Origin: Cinnamomum chago
Taxonomy: Eukaryota; Streptophyta; Magnoliopsida; Laurales; Lauraceae
Direction: 5' to 3'
Assembly: GCA_038049695.1 (NCBI GenBank)
Contig: CP142451.1
Span: 69,022,001-69,086,000, forward strand
DNA: 64,000 nt
The translations under genes were made by a program, and so were the position numbers. The notes under the pieces were generated by a model, which saw only the letters and a list, made by a program, of their open reading frames with translations, searched no databases and had not been told where the DNA came from. Positions 18,139 through 36,119 of this stretch are shown in pieces; positions within the stretch are counted from its first letter, which is position 1, and every line of letters starts with the position of its first letter.

Positions 18139-18649
18139 TAAATGTTCTTATCTGAGTTGAAAAAATTTTCATTGTGCTTTATCCATCATTACTTGGGTTT
18201 GAGCATTCTCTGGCTTCCTCTCATTAATGGACTCCTGGTGTATATTTAGTTGGACAAATTGCTGCCCCTAAATCTATCTTACATATACTTTAATTTAAAA
18301 AAAAAAAAAAAACTTTATAGCATGTAAAGAAATGCAATTACACTCGATTACTACTGCCAAAAATTATTTTTTATTTTTTTGTTCAAATAACAACCATAGT
18401 GAAGACAGTTACGGACAAGAAAGATTTTTACTATAAACAGATTCATTTTGTAACGTTCTAATTTTGGGTAGTTTCTACTGAGATTTGGACTAATTGTTAG
18501 ATTGTGTGGTCTCAATTCATCAGTTGATATAATAAATTGATTAATTTATTTATTTATCAATAAAATCATGCTTTCCTTTCATGAGATGAATGATGTTTTA
18601 TTACTTAGTGCACATGACCAATATATATATCACTACAAGAAAAAGGCCC

Positions 18650-18860
18650 AACAGCGACCAAATGTTTCAGCGATCGCAATTTTCGGTAGCTATTGCGGGT
18701 AATAGCGACCGCTATTAGCGACCGAAAATAAATCCCGTCGCAATTATTATCAGCGACTGGTCGCTGATCAGTCGCTGATTCACAGTTCCCACCATTAAAA
18801 TTGGCGCAATGGCATCAGCGACCGCATTCGGTCGCAGAAATCGGTCGCTGATCCTTTCAC
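18650..18860. repeat. 5' subterminal repeats of the CACTA element
   Basis: At least seven copies of GCGACC or its complement GGTCGC lie within about 200 bp, some paired as palindromes (CAGCGACTGGTCGCTG). In En/Spm elements such subterminal repeats bind the TNPA-type protein and are needed for excision. Confidence 0.88.
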
Positions 18861-18929
18861 CCTTCTTTTTTCCCCTTTGCCGCCACCAAAATCCCTTTTT
18901 CCCTTTGCCGCCACCAAAAACCCTCTTTC

Positions 18930-19007
18930 TCTCGCTCTCGGTCTCTCACGCTCTCTCGGTGTCTCTCTGCTCTCCCGGTCTCTCTCAAGCTCTCTCGGTG
19001 TCTCTCT

Positions 19008-19044
<37 letters not shown>

Positions 19045-19790
19045 CTAGGTCTCTCTCTGCTCTCTGTCTCTCGCTCTCTAGGTCTCTCTCTGCTCTGTCT
19101 CTCGCTCTCTCGGTCTCTCTCTGCTCTCTCTCTCCCTCTCAGTCTCCCTCTGCGTCTCTCTGCTCTCTCTCTCTCTCTCGCTCTCTCGGTTTCTCTCTGC
19201 TCTCTCTCTCCCTCTCAGTCTCCCTCTGCGTCTCTCTGCTCTCTTTCTCTCGCTCTCGGTCTCTCTCTGCTCTCTGTCTCTCGCTCTCTCGGTCTCTCTC
19301 TGCTCTCTCTCTCCCTCTCAGTCTCCATCTGCTCTCTGTCTCTCGGTCTCTCTCTTTCTCTCAGTCTCCCTCTGCGTCTCTCTGCTCTATGTCTCTCGCT
19401 CTCTCTCTGCTCTCTCTCTCTCCCTCTCAGTCTCCCTCTGCTCTGTCTCTCGGTCTCTCTCTCCCTCTCAGTCTCCCTCTACGTCTCTCTGCTCTCTCTC
19501 TCTCGCTCTCGGTCTCTCTCTGCTCTCTGTCTCTCGCTCTCTCGGTCTCTCTCTGCTCTCTTTCTCTCCCTCTCAGTCTCCCTCTACTCTCTGTCTCTCG
19601 GTCTCTCTCTCCCTCTCAGTCTCCCTCTGCTCTGTCTCTCGGTCTCTCTCTCCCTCTCAGTCTCCCTCTGCTCTATCTCTCGGTCTCTCCCTCCCTCTCA
19701 GTCTCCCTCTGCTCTCTGTCTCTCGGTCTCTCTCTCCCTCTAAGTCTCACTCTGCTCTCTGTCTCTCTCTCTCTGTCTCCAAAAAAACCC
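18930..19790. repeat. CT-rich minisatellite in the CACTA 5' part
   Basis: About 860 bp consist of variants of CTCTCGGTCTCTCTCTGCTCT and CCCTCTCAGTCTCCCTCTG with almost no purines besides G in fixed places. Long open frames here (Leu/Ser repeats) come from base composition. It lies between the 5' terminus and the likely leader exon, so it may be transcribed. Confidence 0.9.
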
Positions 19791-20147
19791 ATCTCTGTTA
19801 TCAGGCGCAGACCGATCCCACTGAAGAAACATTGCAGCCCCTTTTCTGGTCGTCTTCTCCAAAGCCAGCACGAGTTTGACCCCTTCTCCAAACCCCATCG
19901 TCTCCAACTTTTCAAAGTCTTTCTCGAACAACATCAACAAGAAGTCGAAGAAGAAGAAGAAGCAGCAAAAGTCGAAGAAGGAGAAGAAGCAAACGTCGAA
20001 GAAGAAGAAGATCCTGATCCAAGCATCCACTTTCCCAGCCCCCACTTTCTCGTCTGGATCTGATCTCTACACCATCAGAAGCATTCGACATACACTTGAT
20101 ATAAAGCTAACTTGATCTCTTCGTCAAATCTCTTCGGGAATTGAGGT
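19790..20147 (+). other. Probable leader exon of the CACTA transcript
   Basis: After the CT-rich tract comes a normal-complexity stretch with a GAAGAAG-rich part (19945-20010), ending at GGAATTGAG before a GTAAAG donor at 20147. The T-rich sequence after it resembles a plant first intron. One frame encodes a Glu-rich peptide and another a Lys-rich one; neither is recognised. Whether it is a transposon leader or a captured host 5' exon is open. Confidence 0.4.
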
Positions 20148-23027
20148 AAAGATTCTGAATTTTTGGTGAAGATCATGTAAGATCTGCTGCCTTAACTTAT
20201 AGTAAGCTAGATCTTCTAATGCTCTGATTTATCTGGCGATTTCTAGTCTAATTTTTTGGTTTTTTGTTCTAGATCTATTTGTTTAACGTTGAAAAAGGTT
20301 GAGATTTCTGTTTATTTATGTCGATTTCTATTTGTTTCGATCTGCATCGATTGAAGTAGCAAGTTCTCGATTGCTTGTTGATGAGCGAATCTGTTGGCCT
20401 CTAGGTCTCTGATTCAATTTCTTTGTAGCATGATTTTGATCGACTACCACAAGTTCACATGCATGTAGGATCGATCCATTTTAGTCAGTTGGAATATCAC
20501 TGAATTTCTCTGTGTTGATAGAAATTAATGAATTTCTTCTTATTATTATATATGTTGCTTTGAGAGTTTCTAATCACTTGTTGCAACTGTTTTCATGCAT
20601 TTGCTTGCATTCCATCCATGTGATGTTTGATTGATTTTCATTGATATAGTTTGTGTTCTATGTAATATGAAATTTAAATATGCATATCAAGTGTATGTTA
20701 TAATGCTTGTAAGAAATTTAAACATACAATACACACACACATACATTTTTTCTACAAGCATATGTATTTTTGTCATACATGGTTGTCACTATAAAGGAAT
20801 TAGTTATTTGGGGGCAGTTGGTAAGGAAATTAAGGATCGTCCATCGAGGGTCTCCTGCCCTACAAACCCCAGTGAGTCTCACTACCAAGCACCAATTGCT
20901 TGGGTTTTGCTTTCATATGTTGATCACAAAATAAGAGAATCCATGTTCTGTGGCTGCTGTATTGTTCAGTTCGGTGAACTTTCAAGTGTTGTTTCATCTT
21001 GGAATTTAGTATAACAAGAACTTCTTTTACAAAATTTCATGTTCTGTTCTTTTTAATTATTTTTTTGTGACATCACTCTTTTACACAGTTGGATTCTGCA
21101 TTCCTTTTTGGAACTATTGCAAATGAGCATGATAAAACATGTGTGTTTGCCCTTGATAGTTTGAATGATTTACTAATGGCACTTCTAGTTTGAATGGAGT
21201 GAGGTCCAAACTCATTCTGAAAGTGTCTTGTTGTTATAAGATGTAACTGTTAGTTCTTTGGCTCAACCATCATCATCGTAGTCATCATCATCATCATAGT
21301 TTTTATAAGTTAAAATATGTGGATTTCTTTGGTTGGCCTATGTGGAAGGTTACTGTTAAAAAAAATAGGCCACACACGATCGTACGAAGGTGGATAGAAT
21401 GTCAAACATTGGATGGACAATGAAGAACAAAATCTTGGGCAGCTTTCTGAAGAACTGGGGAATTCAACAAAGAACCCACTGCATAAATTTATAATCCAAG
21501 TATAAAAACTCCTCCTGAGTTCTGACTTGCCAAGTTGCCATGACTTGTGCCAGTTGACTGATCTGGATAGATGACTAGGGGTGTTCATATCCCAACCTGA
21601 GGCATATCCAGGCCCATCCTGATTTTAGAAACAAGCCTCATATCCAGCCCAAGTCTTACATCGCCGTAGGTGCTTGTCCCAAGCCTGCCCCACCCGAAAC
21701 ATGTGAGGCCCAAACCCGCTCATTTAGACGGTCAGACTGGGCCAGCCAGACATTCCCACTTCTGGCACCCAACTTAGAGCCTAAATAGTACCAGATTTAT
21801 CTAAAAATATATGTATGTAAAATTTTCAATTCATCAGATGGCCCACCTGGACCCATCGCAACAAACGTCTGAGTGTTCAGAATGTTCCTATAAAACATTC
21901 CTAGTTTCTTTCTTCTGTTTTATTTATCTAAGCAAGTTCTTTTGTTAGGAGACTATACTCTGGTTTCTGAGCAATGAATAAATGTGTAGGGCTATCAAGA
22001 ATTTTATGCTCAATCCATGTGTATTCCTTAGTAAGCAATGAATAATATCTTTATTGTTCATCCAATACAGCTACATATGTGCCAAAAAATTTGGATCGAC
22101 TTGTGGGCTACCAGGCTGAGTCATTTTTTGGTGCCCGGCAAAGATCGAACACAACCATGAATTATTTCAAACAACAAAACTGAGATTAATTTATAGCAAT
22201 TCCTTGCATTTTGACTTCATCATCCTAAACTTAATTAGGATATATGAATATAATCTCCCTTTGAGTTAGCAATATAATTTCCCATTGATTTAGCAATATA
22301 ATCTCCCTTTGATTACACCTTAAAAAACCCTAATACAATTAGCAAAATACCCCCGAACCATCCAGTTGACCAAAAATGCAAAATATAAACCCCAACACAT
22401 TAGCACCTTTGTGAATGTGAAAGGCCCACTGAACCTTATGCCAAATCTCTAACCGTTTAATAGTGATAATGAAATCAATCGTGCAACCCAACAAGAAAAG
22501 GGACGGGCACTAATTCGTTCGAGATTGCCCGAGCTCAAACCGTTAGAATGAGGTCTCTGTCAATGATATAATTTAAAACAATAGGACATGTTCAGTTTAG
22601 AAACCCGTTCAAAATTCACTTATTAGGAGTGAATTTTGAATAGTCCCCAGTTTGGGACTGTTCTTGTATGTCATGCTCCCACTTAGGCTGGTGTCAACTA
22701 CTGAAGCAAATGTATCTGTTTGTTATAAAGAAATTTTGGTTTCTTTATCCTCTATTGTTCTCCGGGTGCATACTTAGACTGTATAAATTATAGTCTACTT
22801 CGTGTACTTGGAGACCGATGGGAGATGCTGCCGAAATTTCTTTTGAACAACAGATGCACTTGTTTGAGTCGTTGACATTAGTGGGACGTCGCATACAAGA
22901 ATGGGATAGAAGCCTGACCGGTGTAATAAGGGTAGAGACATATTTAGATAGGAACCATGCATTAATTATACCTAAAGACGGCATAGTTTAATATAATATC
23001 TCTTGTCAAAATAGGTATCGTAGTATC
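20148..23027. other. Non-coding CACTA interior, likely intron and 5' region of the transposase gene
   Basis: The DNA is AT-rich with no gene recognised. Items seen are CA and CAT microsatellites (about 20724-20742 and 21270-21296) and a GGGGTGTTCATATCCCAACC stretch at 21588 that looks like the edge of another small repeat. Around 20800-21010 there is an open frame with no recognisable family. Confidence 0.5.
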
Positions 23028-26000
23028 ATGGATTACTATTCAGACCGTAGTTGGATGAGATGGCGAAAGTCAAGTGCCCAGATAGGTGCTACAGCTGAAT
23101 TTAGAACTGGTTGCCAAGTGTTTTTGGATTATGCGTATAGTCACCCGGAATGTGTCAATGGCCAGAACAAGATAAGATGTCCTTGTTTGAAGTGTAAGAA
23201 TGTAAATTATATGGACGGAGACATGGTCGCCTATCATTTACTTGTTAAGGGGTTCATGAATAATTACGAAGACTGCTGGTGGGCACATGGGCAGAGAAGA
23301 GACAGTGGCATCACCCAAGTACATAATCCCGGCAACAGTACCCATCGTATGAATGACATGGTCCATGATATTGCAGGGCCTGATTTTGATTGGGAACAAG
23401 ACAGAGAGCAAGTTATGAATTTTGATGCCAAAGCGTTCTTTAAGTTATTAGACGAGGGTAGCGAACCGTTGTGGCCTGGTTGCACCAAACAAACTACGTT
23501 GTCTGCAGTGGCGACATTACTTAACATCAAGGCTGATCACAACATGAGCCACGAGTGTTTTGAGTCGCTCTTGAAGGCGATTAAGAGTATGTTGCCTGAC
23601 GGTGAAAAATTGCCGAATAACTACTACTTTTGTAAGAAAATGGTGAAAAAGTTGGGTCTTGGATACCAAAAGATCGATGCATGTCCGAACAATTGTATGT
23701 TATTTTATAAGGAAAATGAACATAAGACAAAGTGCACGTTGTGCAGTCATGATCGGTTCAAGCCTAATAAAGAGGGTGTGACTACAAAAAAGACAAATAT
23801 ACCTTTTAAGATTTTAAGGTATTTTCCAATTACACATCGACTAAAAAGACTGTACATGTCTTCCAGAACAGCTGAACATATGACTTGGCATGCGAGATCT
23901 CCAGCTAAAGATGGGGAACTTAGCCATCCTGCAGATGGGAAGGCTTGGAAAGATTTCAACTTAGCACATCCTGGGTTTGCAATGGAACCCAGAAATGTGA
24001 GGCTTGGATTGTCCATTGATGGTTTCAACCCTTTTGGCCACTCAGTTGTTCCGTACTCCTGCTGGCCTGTGATTGTTACTCCGTACAACTTGCCTCCTTG
24101 GATGTGTATGAAACAGCCATACTTGTTTCTTTCACTCGTGATTCCTGGTCCCAAGAGTCCTGGAAAGAATCTTGATGTTTACTTGAGACCTCTTATAGAC
24201 GAGTTGAAGGTACTGTGGGAGGATGGAGTACAGACTTGGGATGTTTCCACGAAAACAAATTTCAACCTTAGGGCAGCTGTTATGTGGACTATCAGTGACT
24301 TTCCTGCTTATGGTATGTTATCTGGATGGAGTACACACGGAAAGATGGCTTGTCCATATTGTATGGAGCATACAAAGTCTTTCAATCTATCGCATGGTCG
24401 AAAGCCTTGCTGGTTTGACTGTCATCGTCGTTTCTTGCCGGTAGATCACCCGTTTCGAAGAAATAGAGAAAATTTCAGGGAAGGGAAAGTAGATAATGAT
24501 ATGCCTGCACCACGACTGTCTGGGACAGAGATGCTTGATCGTGTGATGCGATTGCCGGTCATTCAATTCGGTAAGATTGCTGCCTCAGAAATAATAAATG
24601 GGTTTGGCGATTCTCATAATTGGGTTCGGAGAAGCATCTTTTGGGAACTGCCCTATTGGTCTACAAATTTGATTCGTCATAATCTGGATGTGATGCATAT
24701 TGAGAAGAATGTGTTCGACAATGTATTTAGTATCGTGATGGGTGTTCCGGGCAAGACGAAAGATAATGATAAGGCACGGTTGGACATGAAAGACATCTGT
24801 AAGCGTCCTGGATTAGAACTAAACTCCTAATGGTAAGATAGTCAAACCGCATGCGAAGCACACATTGTCCAAAAAACAGGTTGAAGATGTGTGCACATGG
24901 ATTAAGTCTCTGAAACTACCAGATGGATATGCGTCAAATATTGCAAGGTGTGTTACAGGTGGGAAATTGCAAGGGCTGAAGAGTCATGACTGTCATGTGT
25001 TCATGGAGAGACTCATGCCTATAGCATTCCGGGACTTGCTTGATAAACCAATATGGGATGCTTTGACTGATCTTAGTCGTTTCTTCAAAGACATATGTTC
25101 AAAAACGTTAAATGAAAAGGACATGTCTATACTTGAGAAGAACATCATTGAGAGCACGTGTAAGCTTGAAAAAATATTCCCACCTAGTTTTTTTTACTCC
25201 ATGGAGCATTTACAAATCCATCTACCCTATGAAGCTCGTGTTGGTGGTCTAGTTCAATATAGATGGATGTATCCTTTTGAGAGGGTGATGGGAAACCTTA
25301 AGAGGAAGGTGAAAAATAGAGCTTACGTCGAGGGGTCTATATGTGAGGCATACAGTTTCGATGAGATATCTATGTTTGTCTCAGACTATTTTCCCGACGA
25401 AGTGTTGACAAAGGCCAATCGAGTCCCAAGACATGATGATGGGGGCAATGTTGAACTAAATGGTCGGCTTTCTGTATTTGGTCTACCGGGTCGCGCTTAT
25501 GGAAAAGGGAAGCGCATATTCCTCTCTGAACAAGAACTACATGCTGTACATACTTACATTCTTTTCAACTGCCAGGAGATTGACGACTTTGTCAGGTATA
25601 CATGATAAATAAAGATTTAACTTTATGTTTTATCCTGCAATCTCATATATTTAGCTGTTAATTGTTATAATATATGTATAGATCATACGATGACGAGTTA
25701 AAAGCAAATCAAATCGGCATCACTGATAAAGATATTCAACTCAGTTGTGATAAAAAAAATTCACTATGGCTAAAGGACAAAGTAAATTAGTTAAGTTAAT
25801 TTATGAATTCATTTAATTTAATTGAATTTTTTAAGTGATAATTCAGAAGTTAACAAATTTTGTGTAGGCTCTTAATGACGTTTCGATTCCTTCAAATGTA
25901 CATGTCCTAACTATGGGCCCAGACAGAGACCAAGTCTGCCGCAATGGTTATAAAGTAAATGGCTATGACTTTCATACAAAGACATATGCCCGCGGAAAAA

Positions 26001-26617
26001 GAACAACTAACACTGGAGTGTGTGTTCAAGGAGATTGTTACAATGAGCTTGGTCGTGCCTTTTACGGAGAGTTGGAGTAAGTCATTGAGTTGTCATACAA
26101 GGGTACTTATGGGGGTCAGATTAATTTGTTCAAGTGTCGTTGGTTTGATTCAGAAAAAGGGATACGTGTCGATCGACATGGAATCGTCGATATTGACGTC
26201 CATAGGTCCACGTACGTCAATGCACCATTTGTGTTGCCAACTCAAACACTACAAGTATACTACACTCCTAGTCCTATTAGGAAAAGGGATAGACCGCCTG
26301 CAGATTGGCAAGTTGTAATTCATACTATTGCGCGCACTCGTGTCCAATTAGTAAACGGGGAGTTCTACCAAGAGGAGATGTTACATAGACCTCCTGTAAT
26401 AACTGTGGATGACAATGATGAACTGACATAGTTAGTGGGTGGAGATGAATATGATGAATTGGATCCTGAGTCAGTACCTGTGCCAGTTGACAGTGACACT
26501 GAGGAAGAAGAGTTATTGACTGAAACTGGTACTGAAACTGAATCTGAAGAAGATGATGGTTATGAATCTCCACATGATGTTCAAGATGATTCTGAATCAG
26601 ACAACGATTGTCATTAA
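23028..26617 (+). pseudogene. TNP2-like CACTA transposase gene, broken
   Basis: It starts MDYYSDRSWMRWRK, the transposase-associated domain with CPCLKCKN near residue 60. The main tnp2 domain follows (LGLSIDGFNPFG, MHIEKNVFDNVF), then a DUF4218 block (KSHDCHVFMERLMPIAFRDL; HLPYEARVGGLVQYRWMYPFER). Introns are likely at 25596-25681 and 25782-25867, with GT and AG borders. The last exon gives the DUF4216-type end (NTGVCVQGDCYNELG; YVNAPFVLPTQTLQVYY), and an acidic tail may extend to 26617. Two faults are visible: one extra T near 24825 shifts the frame where relatives read LNPNGKIVKPHA, and a TAA at 26078-26080 stands inside the C-terminal domain. Normally this enzyme cuts at the CACTA ends. 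Confidence 0.93.
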
Positions 26618-26819
26618 ACTGTATGTTTAGTTTTATTTGCATTACGTATAGTTACATATATACATGTTCTCTATATATTTGTCATATTCATGTGCCTCTC
26701 GTCTATAGTTGTTGTAGTTAACTATTGCAAACAATTACATGTTATTATTGTCATTTTATTTGTGTATGTATAGATCAAATAAGTCATAATAACATCATGA
26801 AATTTTTATTTATGTAGAT

Positions 26820-28350
26820 GGCTTCTTCATCAGCGCCAAGAAAGCGCGGCTTGGGTCGGGGTCCGAATCAGATCCCGAAGGCCCCGGCTAATCCGGATGA
26901 GCGGATTCTCATTCAGATGCGACCTCATCCGGACAGCACGTAAGTTATCTACCTCATCCCGTTTAAAATAAGATTGCTTATCTTTAATGTAAATTGTTGT
27001 ATATTTCAGTGACTTTGCAGATAGCAAGATTGTGAAATGCATTTCACAGCTTTGTTTGCAGAACTGGCCTACGCCAGCGACTACGTGGGCGAGCACACCT
27101 CTCACCCACAAGGATGCATTTTGGACGGAATTTCAGGTATTTTTAATTAATTCCATAAGATAATATCATTACTGAACTAATATTGTTTAATAGTGTTGGA
27201 CTGCATTATCACGGTTTTAATATTAATGGTTATTGTATTTTTATTTGCAAAAAAGGTATAGATGGGACGACGCGCACGCAGCCACGATACAGACACTTTT
27301 CTGGCAAAAGTGCGCCGTCCGAACAAAAGATAACTTGAGTAAAGAACGGCAAAAAGCTTTGTAGAATGCTCAGATCTACCATCCAGGGCAGGCCGAGGAG
27401 TACATGCACGAGTACAGCCCCTGGTGGTGTGCCCCCACCATATGGGCTGGCATCTGTGAGCAATGGAAAGCTGAAAGCTGGGTTAAGAGATGTAGGACTG
27501 CCGCCGTGAATAGAGCCTCAAGTGCATCTGAAGGCAACAAGGCACCAGGCACGTATAAAGGCGGCAGTATATCCCAGCTGCAGCATGTTGCTGCTACGTA
27601 TTTTCCAAAGTTTTTGTTTTTTTTTTTTATGTTTACAATCATGGTATTAGTATGAGAGCATGTGATTAATATATATACATATGTGTGGATCCCGATTTAT
27701 ATTTGTAGGAGGCTAGTTCCCAGGGTCAGCCTATCCATTGGCTAGATGTCTACGTGGCGACCCGCGATGGTCTGCCTGAGGCTGTCCGGATAGTAGTAAG
27801 TTTTTATAACTTGTATATGTTGTTTATAAATTTTAATGTCATTCTTTAGGGTAACTATTTATTTATATTATATATATGCATATTTTTAACCTGATGACAG
27901 GAGACTTATAAGACATTGATGGACGAGCGCTATCCTGAGGGCATCCCGCGGCCGCCGATAGATCAAGAGTTGTGGGAGAGGGCATCGGTTGTCAAGAAGA
28001 ACTACGTTAAAGACCAAGGACAACGACGACGACCGACAGCGAGTGGCACAGGCAGCTCTAGTAGCCAGTCTACGTAGTCATCATGCCATCCGATGCCACA
28101 TACTGCTGCTGACTGTGTGAGAGCGATCTGTCAAGATCGTGATCTCCTTCGTACACTGCGTGTGCATCTGCAGTCCCTGGATCCTGATGAGCTAGCAGAG
28201 GCAGTGGCGACAGCAGCACAGCAGGAGACTGATGACCAGGTAATCTTACTATTTAGTACAATCAACTTAATCACTTAATTATATATTATATACTATATGT
28301 TTAACATGTTTTATTCTTTTGTTCCAGGCACGTTTGGGCGATAATGCGTG
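26820..28350 (+). pseudogene. TNPA-like CACTA gene (Transposase_24 / Ptta type), broken
   Basis: Short exons are inferred: 26820-26940 starting MASSSAPRKRGLGRGPNQ, 27011-27136 with IVKCISQLCLQNWPTP, about 27257-27600 with WDDAHAATIQTLFWQKC and YKGGSISQLQHVAA, 27711-27797 with HWLDVYVATRDGL, and 27901 onward with YPEGIPRPPIDQELW. The last exon ends LGDNA near 28350. This order matches the plant Ptta/En/Spm transposase family (PF03004), whose products bind subterminal repeats. Stops at 27361-27363 and about 28075 within otherwise conserved sequence make it a pseudogene unless splicing differs. Confidence 0.82.
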
Positions 28351-29081
28351 AGATCTATTCATGTATTCTCTTCATCTTGTTCTACCTTTGTACTTATCTA
28401 CCTTCGACTTTGATAAGTGCTAACATTACTAAACTAATTATTTTCTTTCTGAGTACTGCTATGTTTGTCTAATCCCAAGTATTTGGCATCAATAAATCTT
28501 TGTGCATTGTTTTTTCATTTTTAGCTTTGCTGTGTTAATCATAGCTACAATGGTTAGAACTTTGTGGTCTTTTTTTCATTTATTATTTGTGGATATGCTG
28601 ACAACCTATTCTTGTTCTGGTTTCACCATTTCAAACATTTCAATTTATAAGGACTTGAACTTGGGACCATATGTTAGTAGACAAGGAATCAGGTTTCAAT
28701 CTCAAAGTGTTAATTTTTTCAATGTTATTGTAATTCAATCTCAAAGGACTAGAACTTGGGACTTCCCCACTTGTTCTTTCCAAGGGTGTTATTGCGTCTT
28801 TTTTGCTATTGTAACAACATTTTATTCATTTTCATAAAACAATAACATGTTTAAAGAACAATAAAAGTTATTCTTCTTAAAGGAAAGTTATGAAATGAAA
28901 TATCTGAGCTTAACTTTGGAGAATGTTTTTAAGAATAGGCTGAACAGGGTAGGTTGCCATCTATGTTGTTGTTTTTTGTTGATTTTGTTATCATTGCTAT
29001 CATTGTTGTTGTTGTTATTGGAGTTGCCCTTCAATATATTATTTTAGTTTTGCTGACCACCTTCATCTTATTCTTTCATAG
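28351..29081. other. Non-coding stretch before the captured exons
   Basis: T-rich and intron-like, with TTGTTGTTGTT repeats near 28990-29020. The last 60-100 bp before 29082 probably came along with the bZIP exon as its upstream intron. The capture breakpoint is not visible. Confidence 0.45.
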
Positions 29082-29159
29082 GATGAACGTGAACTAAAGA
29101 GACAGAGGAGGAAGCAGTCGAATAGGGAGTCAGCAAGGAGGTCAAGATTACGCAAACAG
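29082..29159 (+). pseudogene. Captured exon of a G-box-binding bZIP factor
   Basis: A 78-bp phase-0 exon lies between CTTATTCTTTCATAG and a GTCTGC donor. It encodes RKQSNRESARRSRLRKQ preceded by DERELKRQR, the DNA-binding basic region of plant GBF-type bZIP proteins. In GBF genes the basic region sits on a small exon of just this kind, so the copy kept its intron borders and came from genomic DNA. The leucine zipper and N-terminal Pro-rich part are absent. It lies in a CACTA element with the same polarity as the transposase genes, so it is a fragment and not a working gene. Confidence 0.88.
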
Positions 29160-29599
29160 GTCTGCATATCATTTCATCCTTCTAATCAATGTCTTTCTCT
29201 TTCTTTGGAATCTCTGCAGATAACTCCTTTTAAAATAGCCTGAAGATGGTCTGCAACATAATCCCATTGGATAACACCAAAAGCAATCTTTAGCATTAAA
29301 AATATGCTGTAGTTTTCTGAATTTTCTTTTATTCATGCACAACCATTTCGTCTACGTTACCCACACATGCAAGTATTATATGTGATTTGATTTTGTTTTG
29401 TAGCTGCATTTTATTTTAATTGTATATATGTTATCTTCTAAAAAAACATGCCAATTTAGAAAACATATTGAAACAGTAAACAACCATGTCCACACTGCTT
29501 TTGCAAATTCACAGAACCCCACCTACAGATGTTTATCAACAGTGGCCATTGAGAAAATATTTTAAGAAAATCACAAAAAAAAATAAAAATAAAAATAAG

Positions 29600-29824
29600 A
29601 TTGGTGTGGATCCTAATGTAGATCCTGAGCTAGCTATTACTCTTCGAGTTTCAATGGAAAAGGAGAGGGCAAGGCAAGAAGCTGCTGCTAAAAAGGCTGC
29701 AGAAGATGCTGCTAGGCAAGAAAAAGAAGGGGAACAAGCTTCAAGTTCTCAAGATGCTCCCATGGCTGAACCTGTGAATAGCAGTTCGGGTCCTGGGGCT
29801 GACAACAAAAGATCTGATCTAACG
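29600..29824 (+). pseudogene. Captured exon of proteasome subunit RPN10
   Basis: About 75 codons encode GVDPNVDPELAITLRVSMEK, then RARQEAAAKKAAEDAARQEK, SSSQDAPMAEP and a DNKRSDLT end before a GTTAGT donor. This is the stretch of plant RPN10 (26S proteasome non-ATPase subunit 4) around its first ubiquitin-interacting motif. Plant RPN10 usually has LALALRVSMEEER here, so the copy has diverged at the motif (AITLRVSMEKER). The von Willebrand A domain is missing. The left edge is replaced by an A-rich sequence, which may mark the capture breakpoint. The exon is still an open frame. Confidence 0.9.
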
Positions 29825-29849
29825 GTTAGTCGCATCCTTTTTATTAACG

Positions 29850-30407
29850 AATAGCTTTTTTTTCCCCTTTTTGGGAGGCAAGTCAATATATTAATAAAAA
29901 AAGGTTGGGCGGAACCCACCATACAACAAAGAGTCAGCTCTATTATGACAATCTAGTAAGGTGACCAGCTATGCAGAACATACAGTGACTAACAGCAGGT
30001 GAGCAACATAAGAAGACATCCAAAAGAAAGGTGAGGAGATCAAAAACAGATAGAGCTCATAAGTTGGGCCAGCTGAATAAATTAATAAAGAATATGATAC
30101 CCCTGGGTAGTGCAGGAACTCACATTCAGAAAAAAGCATAACATCACAGCATAAATAAAATCAAGAGATGACAAAGAACAAACTGAGTTCAATGAAATTA
30201 GAAAACCATGCAAATATGATTTAAAAAATTGGGCTAACCCAAAACAAGTTGAATCTGAGCCCAGATCAGCTCAACTCAACTCAAATATGCTTTTCACTAG
30301 GGTGGTGCAAGAGTGTGGTGCAAGAGTGTCATGCATCACAGGGCGGTGGTGGTAGTAGCTGTTCACTAGGGTGGTTTTTCAACATGTCAGCTCGGCAAAT
30401 GAGGGGG
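29850..30407 (-). pseudogene. LINE 3' tail remnant and low-information spacer
   Basis: On the minus strand, GTATGGTGGGTTCCGCCCAACC then TTTTTTTATTAATATATTGAC resembles the 3' untranslated tail of plant L1 elements. On the plus strand, the two sides of the solo LTR (ACATGTCAGCTCGGCAAATGA and CAGATATGTTAGCTAAGGAC) read like the end of a LINE RNase H domain (ADMLAKDRAV), so a second LINE scrap may have been the target of the LTR. Confidence 0.35.
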
Positions 30408-33400
30408 TGTCGCGACCCCGGACCGGGAATCCTAATCCGGGATCGGGACATTATCTGAATAATGATTAATGATGATTACCTACATCCAGAAGATACAACT
30501 TATTAAATTTCCCACAGGTGTCCGCGGTGAGGATATCGCAACCATCAATGAATGTTTCTTTAAAGTGCGGAAGCGTATGGCAAATCAAATAGTCAATCCA
30601 TCCTTGGTCATCAAGGCAATAACACAAGTCTAAACACTGTATCAGAATGAGCAATGATCTATAGCATGTTACCCAAGTAAGTTAAAGTTTATACAATTAA
30701 CATTTAATTACATTTCCCCAAAAATAGAGGCCAACAAAGGCCAATATACAAAATACCAATTCCAAAGAATGGTTAAACAGTTCCCCAAAATGGTAAGTCT
30801 CTTAAAACCATCAAACGTCTACATGACGTCATCGGCACGCCACTCAACCAACTGCTGCGGTTCTACGACCGCCTCCTCGGGATAACCGACGGCGGGACCT
30901 GAGTAACAAAGAGTAGGTCAAACACGACGGTTTGGCAAATGGAGGAAATATAATGACAATAAGGGAATACATGAATTTCTCTTCAAAACATGAAAACCTA
31001 TTTAAACGACAATTTCTCTAAACGAGATAAAGCATTTATTCAAATACAAGGATGCAATGTAAAAACATGTACGGTGACCAAGGGAACGGGGAACAAGCAA
31101 GATGGCGACCACACGAAGCTAAGTCCTCTATCACTACGGTGATAGAGCAATAACTAGGCCCTGATCTCAGTCACTCGAGGCGAGGAGAAACAGGAGATCT
31201 CATATAAATACATATACAATACTATACATGACCACGGTAGCGAGCCGGGCATCGGGGACCACAGTAGCAATCTGCGGCATCGGGATAAGACCACGGTAAT
31301 GACCGGGTAGCGGGATCCAAACTGCAGCTGGCGGGACAAGAGGGGGATCTCCAAGTCGATGGATCAGACCAACAGGGTTATCCAAGCTTAGTGGTGCCGA
31401 CTCATAGGTCAAATACAATCGAGACATATGCAATGAAATCAAGTACAAGTACATAAACAAGCGGGCAAGGCGGGGGGTGCTCAAGGGCACACTATCATAT
31501 CAAGTGGTGCAATGCACTTCGGGTCAAGTAACCATTTCAAGTGTACAACCATGCTTTCGGGAAACAAGACAAGTAGTGCAAATCTTGGGATCAGTAAAGT
31601 ACTATAAACAATTGACATTTCGGGAAAACATCTATTTGAAAATGGATAGCGACCCCGTATGTCGATCACATAGCAATTTGGTACTCTTTGAGTTTGGGGA
31701 CATTCCGGGCTCCTTATACACTTAAATCTTTTCAAAACTATGAATGAAAACCTTGTGATATGGTTTCTTCCTCAAATGGCCTCATACAATGCCTAACAAA
31801 TCTCCATGATATGGAGGGGTTCCCAAAGAGTAGTCCCAATGCGTTGAAACAGTCAAACGTTGTCCAAAACATAACCTAAGCCAGACGACCCGCATCGCTC
31901 GAGCGAACTGTAGGGTTCGCTCGAGCGAGTCGCTCGCTGGGAAGGTTGTCTGGGTGAGTTCGCTCGAGAGAACTCATTGGGTCGAGCGGTTATTTAAATG
32001 CGTTCGAGCGAACAACTCACTGGAATTAGTTCTGGGATTACCGCTCGAACGACCAAGGGTCCGCTCGAGCGACCCAGCTATTGGAATGCTCCGAACCATT
32101 TCTGGACAGGTCGCTCGAGCGAAGTGTCATGGTCGCTCGAGCGAACTGTCCAGGAACAGATTCCGGACCAGTTCAGCTCCTCTCTATTTCTCCTTTTTAC
32201 AACCTCCTTTTAGCCCTTCTTACACATCAAGTGAGGAGTCTAAAAACCCCTTTCCAACAACCTCAAATCTCAAATAACCTCCATCCCATTCTTCTCCATC
32301 ACAATACATTCAATACAAGGGAGAAGGGAGAAGGAAAACATTTCACAACATAAACTTTTGAAACAAAACAAGAAGACATTCAATGCTATGAGCTACCTCC
32401 TCTCTATGATCATAATTATGCCATTAATACTCTAGCATGAGCATTCATTTCAACACAAAACAATAAATATGCATTAATGGAAAGTAACCAAAATCCATGA
32501 AAGCTTTGTAAAATCATTCATCCACTTGCCTCAAGTCTTCTAACAATAGAAATCAAGCTCTAACAATCTCCAAAGACAATGGTCCAAGCTACAAGGCAAA
32601 AATCCCCAAAATAAAGCCCTAAAATGGTCAAACAATGAGATAATAATGAAACCTTCCAATAATAAAGGTGGGGCTTCTCTATGGCCAAAGGAATACAAAT
32701 CTAGAAGATGAAGGGTAATACTTACTTGCAAGGTCCTCTAATGGCAATGGTAAGCTCAAAGGAAATCTTGAAATGGATGGTTTGCTCCACAAAACTATTG
32801 AAGGAAAGCTCTCAAGGAGATGAAGAAGGTGATGGCCTCCAATCCCCTCTTGGTGCAAGTTTGGGAGTGGATTGAGTGATGGAAAGCAAGAAGAAGAAGG
32901 AGTTGCTCACAAAGCCCTAGTTCTCTCTCTTGTGCTGGAAAATGACAATGGAAGGGAAGGGTCTCCTATGGTAGCAAGTGAGGAGTGGGCTCGACCACTA
33001 ACAATCTACTTAGGCTGAAATCATCTCTCTCGGGACCTCGGATGAATTCGACGAAGAAGGAAGAAATGTTCGTCGAAATATCTAGTTTCCAAAAAGTATA
33101 GGTTTCGCGGGCTTCGGGAATATCAAGTTTTGGGTACAGATTTGGTGCACAATGACTGTTTTGCCCCCAAGGTCAAAATTCGGGTTTCGGGATCTCAAAC
33201 GGAGTCGGGATCAACCTGAAAGTTGTAGAGCTTAACAATACCGATAAAACAAGATTAAAACAATGAATGCGAAATCTCCGATAAACCTCAATCATATGCA
33301 ATGTCATGAAAAGGAAACCCCCGAAGGGTCCCACTAAGCACCAAGCAATCAAAAATCCCCCAAAACTAATTCGAAAGCTATTCCAAACCCAACTTAGTCA

Positions 33401-33476
33401 AGATCACTAATCAAGCTTAGCACTAGCACGCAACTTAATTAGCACTAATCGGGCTCACTCGGGTCGGGGTCTTACA
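30408..33476 (-). mobile_element. Solo LTR, 3.07 kb, Ty3/gypsy-like, inside the CACTA element
   Basis: Ends are TGTCGCGACCCCGG and CGGGTCGGGGTCTTACA, flanked by GGGGG on both sides (30403-30407 and 33477-33481), a perfect 5-bp target duplication. No gag or pol is present, so it is a solo LTR left by recombination between two LTRs. Read on the minus strand its start (TGTAAGACCCCGACCC, then GATTAGTGCTAATTAA) resembles the start of the LTR at 55692 (TGTAACACCCCAACCC, then GATTAGTGCAAATTAA), so both belong to related families, possibly Del/Tekay by length and ends. Strand is relative to that copy. Confidence 0.87.
31896..32143. promoter_or_regulatory. Cluster of CGCTCGAGCG palindromes in a solo LTR
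   Basis: Five perfect 10-bp palindromes CGCTCGAGCG begin at 31896, 31918, 32062, 32112 and 32134, and several one-base variants lie between them (CGTTCGAGCG, CGCTCGAACG, CGCTCGAGAG). Each carries three CpG sites. A dimeric-protein binding site or hairpin role is inferred, not shown. Confidence 0.7.
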
Positions 33477-33797
33477 GGGGGCAGATATGTTAGCTAAGGA
33501 CAGAGCAGTTACTAATGTTTTTTAGAGCGTTTCTTCTATACAGTGCGTTTTTGAAGAGCCTACCACTTAAATACCCTTGGAAGGGGATAGGTCTAAGTGG
33601 AGTGGAAAGTGTTTTTCCATGAGAACTATTAGCCCCACACGCGATATGTGAAATGAATAAGTAATTATTTGATAATGAGCAAGTAATATACTTCTATTTG
33701 GTTGGGCATTTAAAGTTACATAAGCTCTTTGCGTATGCATGATTTCTATTTCAATGGTACTGCTTGATCTTCTGACTGTTAATATGCTTAATTGAAT

Positions 33798-34192
33798 CTG
33801 GGAGGACCTGCTCCAGCTCTCATCAAGGCTGAAGTGCCATGGTCTACCCGGAGAAGCAACCTCTCTGAAAAGGAACGTGTTTTGAAGACTGTGAAAGGGA
33901 AATGAAGTTTAGATGTGTTTGTACTTTAATGGGTGACTTCAGACATGTCTTTTTTTCATGTATATAATTCTTGATGATTGGAAAACTATGTTGCATGGAG
34001 TCTTTAAAATTAGAAACCTACCTGTGTATGTCACATTTAGGACATGAACTATGTGTTAATGATTTCTTTAATTAGATGAAGTTTAGCTATGTTTGTACTT
34101 TAATGGTTAGCTTCGGACATGTCTAAAGTGCCATGGTCTGCCCGGAGAAGCAACCTCTCTGAAAAGGAACGTGTTTCGAAGACTGTGAAAGG
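33798..34192 (+). pseudogene. Captured eIF(iso)4G exon, present twice
   Basis: At 33798-33899 the frame reads [14 protein letters not shown], then [19 protein letters not shown], the start of the MIF4G region of plant eIF4G/eIF(iso)4G, which binds eIF4A in cap-dependent translation. A second copy of the last part (34126-34192, [21 protein letters not shown]) ends at a clean GG|GTAAGG donor. In the first copy the donor has decayed. Only this exon is present, so no function is expected. The polarity is that of the other captured exons. Confidence 0.85.
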
Positions 34193-34375
34193 GTAAGGAA
34201 GTTTAGATGTGTTTGTACTTTAATGGTTAGCTTCAGACATGTCTTTTTTTCATGTATATAATTCTTGAAGATTGGAAAACTATGTTGCATGGAGTCTCTA
34301 AAATTAGCAACCCACCTGTGTAGGTCACATCTAGGACAAGAAACTGTGTGTTAATGATTTCTTTCATTATTAACT
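33832..34375. repeat. Two tandem copies of a 294-bp unit containing the eIF(iso)4G exon
   Basis: AAGTGCCATGGTCT at 33832 recurs at 34126, and the downstream intron (GATGTGTTTGTACTTTAATGG, CATGTATATAATTCTTGA, GGAAAACTATGTTGCATGG) follows in both copies. A third short echo of the intron start lies at 34075-34124. The duplication took place after or during capture, because it spans exon and intron alike. Confidence 0.9.
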
Positions 34376-34962
34376 TTAACATCATTTGTAGCTGATAAAA
34401 TGTTATTATTTGTTTTTTTTTAATTCGAGTAATATTTTTACTCGATTATTTAGAGTAAGATTTGGGCACATATTTTTATGGGATACCGATAAATAAGTCT
34501 TATACTTCAATTGAATGCAGAGTATATATCCCGCAGTTCATAACTTTCACTTGTTTTACTTTAAATGCAGAGTCTTATACTTCATTTGTTTTACTTTCAC
34601 TTCGAGGCTCTAGTTTCCGTACATACTTTTTCCTTTCCGTATCGTAACTTCTCTCACTCTCCCTCCCCTGCGCAGGTAGCAACCCTCCATCTGTCTCGCT
34701 CTCCCTCCATTCGAAAACCCCCAAATCATCGAAAACCCTCAAACTCTCTCGACTCTTTCTCGGTTTCCAGGCAGCATAAAACAGAGGAAGGGAACGAAGA
34801 AGAGGAGGAAAAGAGGAAGAAAAAAAGAGAGAGGAAGAGGAAAAGAAATGCCTTGAAAACTCAGGTATAAGGTATGGGTTTTTTCTTATCAGATTACATG
34901 TTCTGATGTCCAAACACTATAAGGCCAGACTTGGACTCGGGCCTTCATCATGCAGTAGACTT
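34376..34962. other. CT-rich then purine-rich stretch, possible captured leader exon
   Basis: A CTCTCCCTCC-rich part (34645-34720) is followed by a GAAGAGGAGG-rich part (34780-34850), ending in AACTCAG before GTATAAGG. The layout mirrors that of 18930-20147 at the other end of the transposon. No protein family is recognised. Confidence 0.35.
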
Positions 34963-35136
34963 TTATGTACTGGACTGAGATATCCCCTTATGGCGCCTTA
35001 CAGAAAACTTCTCAAAGCTAGATTCAAAATCAGCCAAATCAGATCTAGTTGGAGGCCACAGTTCCATCAATGAGTATGACACATCTTTTAGGCTGCCACC
35101 TTCAAGCCCATACGACAGATTCTTGAAAGCTGCTGG
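34963..35136 (-). pseudogene. Possible captured 3' terminal exon of an unrecognised gene
   Basis: On the minus strand an acceptor-like CTCGTCAACAG is followed by an open frame of 57 codons, PAAFKNLSYGLEGGSLKDVS, then LMELWPPTRSDLADFESSFE and a stop after SQSST. The composition is that of an ordinary plant protein and not of a transposon. I do not recognise the family. If captured, it is in the opposite orientation to the other three host fragments. Confidence 0.4.
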
Positions 35137-35598
35137 CTGTTGACGAGATAGAAACATTGCGGTGCGTGTAATTACTATCTACTACAATTTGTAATATCAG
35201 GTAACAATTTTTGGGAAAGTGGCGGGTTATTTTTTTCATTCTTTTTGTAGCAGCAAATTATATATATATCAATAGTTTAAGAGGAAATGGCAGCCTGATC
35301 TTTCATTGCATTCTTTGGCCTGTGCTAACATCATGAATATGTATAGATTTTCAAATATGGTATGTTGTACATTTGAGTTATGTATATCAATTTCAAGTTT
35401 AGAAAATTTGGAACAATTTGATAATCGTACATTTGAGTTATGTAAATCGGTTTCAATTCTAGAAAATTTGAACCATTTGATGTTTCATTTCTATAATTTG
35501 AACCATTTCAACTACTATGTGTTGGGATATAAAGCAGGTGCAGGTACAATTTTTGGGAAATGCAGAAAACAGGCAATTTTTTTTTATTTGTTCACTAT

Positions 35599-36119
35599 CA
35601 GCGACCGTATTTGGTCGCTAAAAGGTTTCTGCGACCAAAAAAGAATTTTTAAAATTTTTCTTAATTAATTAATTTTTAATTATCAGCGACCGAATGGGGT
35701 CGCTAATATGTATGTGCGACCGCACATATCAGCGACCGAATGCGGTCGCTAAAAAGTTTCTGCGACCGCAAACGAAATTTTTTTAATTTTTTTAAATTAA
35801 TTAATTTTTAATTATCAGCGACCGATTGCTGTCGCTAAAAGAAGTTTCGGCGACCGAAAAGTAATTTTTTTTAATTTTTATTTGAACTATTAGCGACCGA
35901 ATACGGTCGCAGATAGCGGTCGCTGATACTTTTCAGCGACCACATCGGTCGCTATTGGCGGTCGCTGATAATTCGGTCGCTGATGTCGGTCGCCGGAGTC
36001 CACCTAGCGACCAGATAAGCTGCGACTAAGAGTAGCGACCGGATGCGGTCGCTGATACGTTTTAGCGACCATATGCGGTCGCTGATAGGCGGTCGCTGAT
36101 AGGCTGTTTTCTTGTAGTG
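35599..36119. repeat. 3' subterminal repeats of the CACTA element
   Basis: More than twenty copies of AGCGACCG or CGGTCGCT occur in 520 bp, mostly as inverted pairs 5-15 bp apart, up to the terminal TTTTCTTGTAGTG. This is the denser counterpart of the 5' subterminal block. Confidence 0.92.

Follow-up and report, generated by a model that had tools for sequence, protein, structure and literature searches.

Pieces of unlinked host genes in one internal slot of a transposase-bearing CACTA element of Cinnamomum chago

How do pieces of several unrelated host genes come to lie side by side within a transposon that carries a transposase region of its own? The question is raised by a CACTA element of Cinnamomum chago (Lauraceae), located in a stretch of 64,000 nucleotides that we refer to as the window (assembly GCA_038049695.1, contig CP142451.1, positions 69,022,001 to 69,086,000, forward strand). 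The original prediction, which was made from the letters of the window only, described exons of three host genes between the ends of this element and proposed that they had been captured from genomic DNA. The explanation that we consider best, with a probability of about 0.72, is error-prone gap repair at a single internal slot in a largely transposase-bearing family. The features on which the argument rests are the following.

18631..36119, plus strand (tnp2 orientation): the whole CACTA element, 17.5 kb, on C1; flanked by TAT/TAT, weak and AT-rich
18631..18659, plus strand: 5' terminal inverted repeat (TIR), with AGCGACC-type subterminal repeats next to it
36091..36119, minus strand: 3' TIR, with subterminal repeats at ~35599-36119
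22992..24827, plus strand: open frame of 612 residues for a predicted tnp2-type transposase (Transpos_assoc and Transposase_21)
26820..28351, plus strand: second transposon gene region, limits set by eye; ~97-99% identity with sister copies
28762..29589, plus strand: GBF-type bZIP tract, the basic-region exon 29082-29159 with intron sequence on either side; donor C11:49716495-49717714
29602..30095, plus strand: RPN10 tract (truncated exon of the first ubiquitin-interacting motif, UIM1, up to 29824, then its intact donor site and intron sequence); donor gene C11:36398662-36401945
33552..34658, plus strand: eIF(iso)4G tract in which an exon segment is internally duplicated; best genomic relative at C4:18.378 Mb
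34987..35338, plus strand: fourth captured tract, made up of what looks like a last exon (ending in ..SSPYDRFLKAAGC-stop) and DNA downstream of it; donor C12:17363112-17363468

The intact CACTA termini of the original prediction were found as a pair of TIRs of 29 nt each, 86% complementary and starting CACTACAAGAAAA, next to which short AGCGACC-type subterminal repeats occur in both orientations. A genome-wide search that allowed at most two mismatches returned 62 TIRs of the 5' type and 48 of the 3' type (110 in total), whereas the reversed control patterns gave no match anywhere in the genome in the same search. The trinucleotide TAT on either side of the element stands within AT repeats and is only suggestive of a target site duplication (TSD). 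The tnp2 region matches the Pfam families Transposase_21 (E 5e-91) and Transpos_assoc (E 1.6e-15), and also DUF4218 and DUF4216; the latter two lie downstream of the 612-residue frame, in different frames and up to ~26428; the difference in frame may be due to introns, or the frame may have changed in this copy. No Pfam match was obtained for the second transposon gene region. Judged by its TIRs, its subterminal repeats and the predicted tnp2-type transposase, the element is a member of the CACTA (En/Spm) group. Immediately inside its 5' end lies a long CT-rich degenerate repeat region (18922-19802). Elsewhere in the genome two pairs of family TIRs stand close together, at C4:81664342-81664550 (~0.2 kb) and C3:105816270-105822066 (~5.8 kb), and these are probably non-autonomous derivatives.

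The host pieces lie in the 3' half of the element, with tnp2 upstream, in line with the predicted position downstream of the transposon's own genes, and all three predicted exons are indeed on the plus strand with open frames. A search of the same genome with these exons, as the original prediction had proposed, located parents at C11:49.72 and C11:36.40 Mb and a best match at C4:18.38 Mb. The basic-region exon was correctly assigned to a GBF-type bZIP gene: it matches Pfam bZIP_1 (E 8.7e-8), and the tract that contains it is 95-96% identical to its donor across both introns (33/833 mismatches), where an upstream exon reads by eye as GBF-like. The donor carries three extra stretches that are absent from the element, each with 2 bp of microhomology, which were either lost from the element or gained by the donor. 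A locus at C3:124.64 Mb (79% identity to the exon) was rejected as donor, as C11:49.72 Mb matches the introns as well.

The RPN10 exon (29602-29824) has no Pfam match, yet it matches the structure chain 8amz_W (E 2.2e-19) and, at E 6e-9 and weaker, chains named 26S proteasome subunit 4 / RPN10. Its tract differs from the donor at 25/493 positions (donor exon matches at C11:36398662-36401634), and starts inside the exon and ends within the following intron. The assignment to RPN10 at UIM1 thus stands, whereas the exon is not whole but truncated at its left. A candidate at C10:47.49 Mb was rejected as RPN10 (29%, E 1.5).

For the third tract the nearest genomic sequence is C4:18.38 Mb, with 58/1060 mismatches and 89% identity when gaps are included. 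The exon itself (~33800-33898) has no Pfam match; sequence further downstream at C4:18.38 Mb holds a MIF4G domain (E 2.6e-23), and we take the gene to be eIF(iso)4G instead of another eIF4G. The predicted eIF(iso)4G exon is supported by this match, although both of its splice sites are gone in the window. Matches at C2:7.03-7.05 Mb (84-85%) were rejected as donor in favour of C4:18.38 Mb; the four eIF(iso)4G-like matches there span 27 kb (C2:7026511-7053634) and possibly form a tandem array. Within the tract a 225-nt eIF(iso)4G stretch is duplicated with 294 nt spacing and 92% identity (33824-34342), and the same duplication occurs at C4:18.38 and C11:3.59 Mb. Positions 33555-33695 are ~76% like plastid DNA (plastid-like sequence on C14, and C13) and may go back to an old plastid insertion into the donor intron; a separate capture from the plastid was rejected, as the stretch falls within the C4:18.38 Mb donor tract. 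C14 measures 152,753 bp, and mirrored hits on it imply, by hand calculation, a large single-copy region of ~93.7 kb; together with hits on 12 chromosome-size contigs this would fit a member of the Lauraceae.

The fourth tract, which was absent from the original prediction, matches its donor on C12 with 17/350 mismatches. Its frame is open up to the stop, and a six-frame Pfam scan gave no name for the gene.

Multi-gene capture from genomic DNA, as originally proposed, is supported by the comparison of these tracts with their donors. The donors are unlinked, two of them on C11 at a distance of 13 Mb and the others on C4 and C12, with the element itself on C1. Three of the tracts are longer than the exons they contain, and homology of ~89-96% takes in introns as well, spans hundreds of bases and ends abruptly. 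The presence of introns implies that it was genomic DNA that was copied. The claim that intron borders had been kept is fully borne out by the bZIP exon only, where the AG and GT borders are intact in the window and in five aligned sister copies; RPN10 retains its donor site (GT at 29825) without an acceptor of its own, and eIF(iso)4G has neither border here.

The same block recurs in dispersed sister copies, which speaks against exons native to this locus, and comparison of the copies suggests that the slot has had a history. Copy counts are lower bounds, since the genome searches scored the best 40 of 60, 40 of 244, 40 of 111 and 40 of 362 candidates. The copies have a 5' core of ~97-99% identity in common and continue with other sequence past breaks at or near 28751, 28768, 28778, 28812, 29040 and 29388. 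What follows the breaks was identified by six-frame Pfam scans of the cargo parts of 11 stretches, namely the window and 10 sister stretches, three of which gave no match above the cut-off in any of the six frames. At C4:47.47 Mb the bZIP DNA ends at 29040 and is followed by a DHU1 piece (E 3.8e-33) with WD40, and then by MYB-CC. At C12:3.14 Mb the bZIP tract (to 29388) leads directly into the fourth tract (from 35085), behind which lie pieces of PP2A-A HEAT (E 2.4e-8) and SH3_15 (E 5.5e-10), the latter presumably from a KEG-like gene. Cargo at C10:14.25 Mb includes NDR (E 1.2e-5), and at C12:37.37 Mb topoisomerase I (TOP1) in antisense (E 6.5e-6). The copy at C2:106.07 Mb carries RPN10, metallothionein (a peptide read by eye in a stretch outside the six-frame scans; Pfam E 3e-5) and MYB-CC (E 3.9e-9).

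Of at least 25 copies with foreign DNA in the slot, 18, including the window, match the 701-base tnp2 query over its whole length and at the corresponding position. The cargo also shows a bias in orientation: nine of the ten genes named through Pfam or PDB are in sense with the transposase (bZIP, RPN10, eIF(iso)4G via its donor locus, metallothionein, MYB-CC, DHU1, PP2A-A, SH3_15 and NDR) and TOP1 is antisense, which gives a two-sided binomial probability of ~0.02, calculated by hand and post hoc, with metallothionein chosen by eye from a stretch that was not scanned on both strands. We tentatively propose a largely transposase-bearing CACTA family with a repair-prone slot that repeatedly gains, trims and swaps host pieces, mostly in sense. 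A second group of copies has only 28199-28697 in common with the window in the stretches compared, and one of these has leucine-rich-repeat-like frames (by eye).

The joins give an indication of how this may have come about. Bases of the window are missing at 18 junctions, three of which are empty-site variants of a long terminal repeat (LTR)-like insert and were excluded. The remaining 15 distinct deletion junctions have a mean microhomology of 2.6 bp, whereas the mean of 40,000 random pairs is 0.71, and 0/20,000 resamples reach the observed value; the 12 junctions without filler bases alone have a mean of 3.1. Wherever the BLAST overlap gave another value, the one measured exactly on the window was used. 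At the join between the bZIP and RPN10 tracts the motif TTGG is, by eye, common to both donors. The cargo slot extends from the second transposon gene (5' limit ~28351-28751) to the 3' subterminal repeats (from ~35334), and members of the family keep both ends, and often the tnp2 region, with variable cargo in between. In the proposed mechanism pieces of unlinked host genes would be copied into the slot as genomic DNA during gap repair that follows excision and is interrupted, the copying strand switching between loci or the ends joining early. Later the pieces would be trimmed, joined and partly replaced through microhomology-mediated events. Distant intron-bearing pieces, microhomology at joins, conserved ends and a frequently retained tnp2 are the pattern that interrupted gap repair predicts. 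The donor loci, the limits of the tracts, the breakpoints that copies have in common, the differing cargo of sister copies and the microhomology at deletion junctions are observed; that gap repair was the route, and in what order the captures took place, is what we infer from them. The pieces differ from their donors by 4.0 (bZIP), 5.1 (RPN10), 5.5 (eIF(iso)4G) and 4.9% (fourth tract), and for the same tracts the window differs from the other copies by 0.3-2.5%. As the donor differences are alike, judged by inspection, and exceed those among the copies, the captures seem to be older than the spread of these copies and similar to each other in age.

A number of observations weigh against error-prone gap repair in a transposase-bearing family. 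The tnp2 query is only partial in two of the at least 25 copies (C3:83.61 and C2:103.15 Mb), the stretch has been lost in another two (C5:78.66 and C3:105.82 Mb), and the copies at C12:3.14, C2:106.07 and C5:59.71 Mb fall outside the best 40 of 362 tnp2 candidates. Microhomology was quantified at deletions between copies, and at the capture joins it was judged by eye only; the right join of RPN10 and the left join of bZIP are less clear. The start of RPN10 is identical within ~1 bp at C7:24.33, C4:75.33, C2:106.07 and C3:54.01 Mb, where the bZIP tract is absent and the left neighbour is another; simple trimming would leave this left end, shared by two types of cargo, unexplained. Among the family copies compared, none was recognised as empty or as predating the captures, so that the order and number of the captures are not proven. 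Finally, end joining or recombination between elements could produce similar junctions.

Four distinct tracts need not imply four events, since they could have entered in a single repair with template switches, followed by deletion and some fresh captures. The four similar donor differences agree with this but would equally fit several captures near in time, and the join of bZIP to the fourth tract at C12:3.14 Mb is as expected from deletion, whereas the other genes of the sister copies require separate captures. Such a complex event is a special case of the gap repair that we prefer, and on its own we regard it as unlikely, though worth keeping in view. Another model, put forward for Pack-CACTA and further Pack-TYPE elements, is aberrant excision, in which two nearby related elements lose the ends that face each other and transpose as one unit with the intervening host DNA (PMC8903248, PMC13317346). 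It accounts for tracts that contain introns, but four tracts from four distant loci would take repeated rounds, and here the cargo is internal with tnp2 upstream of it. It also requires elements beside the donors, and 0/110 family TIRs lie closer than 1 Mb to any of the four donor tracts (at most two mismatches; more diverged ends were not sought), although elements can leave again. We therefore consider aberrant excision improbable. Nothing was found in favour of chance matches or of a native gene cluster, and both can practically be dismissed in view of ~89-96% identity over hundreds of bases with introns, and of the dispersed sister copies.

A different kind of explanation holds that the cargo was selected, with read-through transcripts yielding useful chimeric proteins. 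Open frames and the intact splice sites of bZIP agree with this idea, and splicing of this kind has been reported for Tgm-Express1 of soybean (PMC1947982). The majority RPN10 sequence of the copies differs from the donor at 2/223 exon sites against 21/270 intron sites, which would also fit. We did not adopt selection on the element as the cause of this difference, as in our judgement the donor exon is itself constrained, and this probably accounts for part of the low exon difference. Among 14 CACTA copies, some of them partial and with the window included (C1:28.05 Mb, with 73 exon bases only, was left out), the RPN10 exon shows 15 nonsynonymous and 4 synonymous variants, close to an opportunity of 512:154 (3.3:1). 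The exon thus behaves as unconstrained sequence, and the variants look neutral. The eIF(iso)4G donor site is GA in 9/9 CACTA copies that span it, the window included, and GT in six aligned genomic relatives; the acceptor is CTG in the window and at C5:16.66 Mb, whereas the nine remaining CACTA copies in the alignment have CAG. With these losses, and RPN10 lacking an acceptor, a transcript that joins all three exons via their own borders is not expected here, and the read-through fusion of three domains that was originally suggested is unlikely for the window copy. Selected cargo is in our opinion very improbable; the open frames look like a reflection of youth and the captured pieces look like passengers, not selected genes.

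Gene capture by CACTA elements is well known, as the original prediction recognised, and the present element is a further case: elements with host gene pieces have been described in soybean, morning glory, Chenopodium, Arabidopsis and wheat (PMC1947982, PMC5105172, PMC8978399, PMC8903248, PMC4290129). Tgm-Express1 of soybean wp (5.7 kb) has CACTA ends around intron and exon pieces of five unrelated host genes, and resembles our element in combining pieces of several such genes; chimeric transcripts were demonstrated there, whereas our element contains tnp2 and is known from genomic sequence alone (PMC1947982). The Tpn1 family of Japanese morning glory, which has 3-bp TSDs, likewise combines conserved ends with internal host sequence; its non-autonomous elements are described as having a host-substituted interior, whereas many of the cargo copies described here retain the tnp2 region (PMC5105172). 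In Chenopodium host fragments occur in CACTA elements with coding domains, and capture-prone regions were noted by the authors; the fragments are located 5' of ORF1, whereas our slot follows the transposon genes on their 3' side and combines pieces of several host genes (PMC8978399). In wheat 3B, 140 events of CACTA-mediated capture were reported; the genes lie between two elements of the same family, and the accessible portion of the report gives no within-family history of a slot (PMC4290129). Pack-TYPE elements have host gene fragments between their TIRs, in Pack-CACTA between CACTA TIRs, as has our element, but they are defined as non-autonomous: an element with a transposase match is classed as autonomous and would not be counted, and with its tnp2 region and predicted transposase our element would fall outside the definition (PMC8903248).

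What is unusual is that tnp2-bearing copies have cargo, and that a single assembly contains the copies and donors from which the turnover of one slot can be followed. No earlier account of one-slot cargo turnover in a transposase-bearing CACTA family was found in the literature searched, which left most subscription papers outside its coverage. How cut-and-paste elements pick up DNA is still debated. The presence of donors and many sister copies in one assembly allows breakpoints to be compared base by base, and gap repair and aberrant excision predict different outcomes. Transposase-bearing elements can evidently hold multi-gene cargo, a class that the Pack-TYPE definition excludes. If this is general, an element would not have to lose its transposase in order to capture host DNA, and such capture would be overlooked wherever annotation rules drop transposase-bearing elements.

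Three further features make up the rest of the cargo region.

30096..30412, no strand assigned: fragment common to the sister copies, with no candidate origin; resumes at 33479-33551 beyond the LTR-like insert
30413..33478, no strand assigned: solo-LTR-like insert, TG..CA, 3.07 kb, with GGGGG on both sides
34659..34986, no strand assigned: tract including a dispersed repeat (~34705-34911)

The LTR-like insert is missing from 9/9 other copies that span its site and is private to the window among the ten compared. Since the site is uninterrupted in those nine, the insert arrived later, as a nested insertion, and is not part of the cargo. It contains several TCGCTCGAGCGA palindromes.

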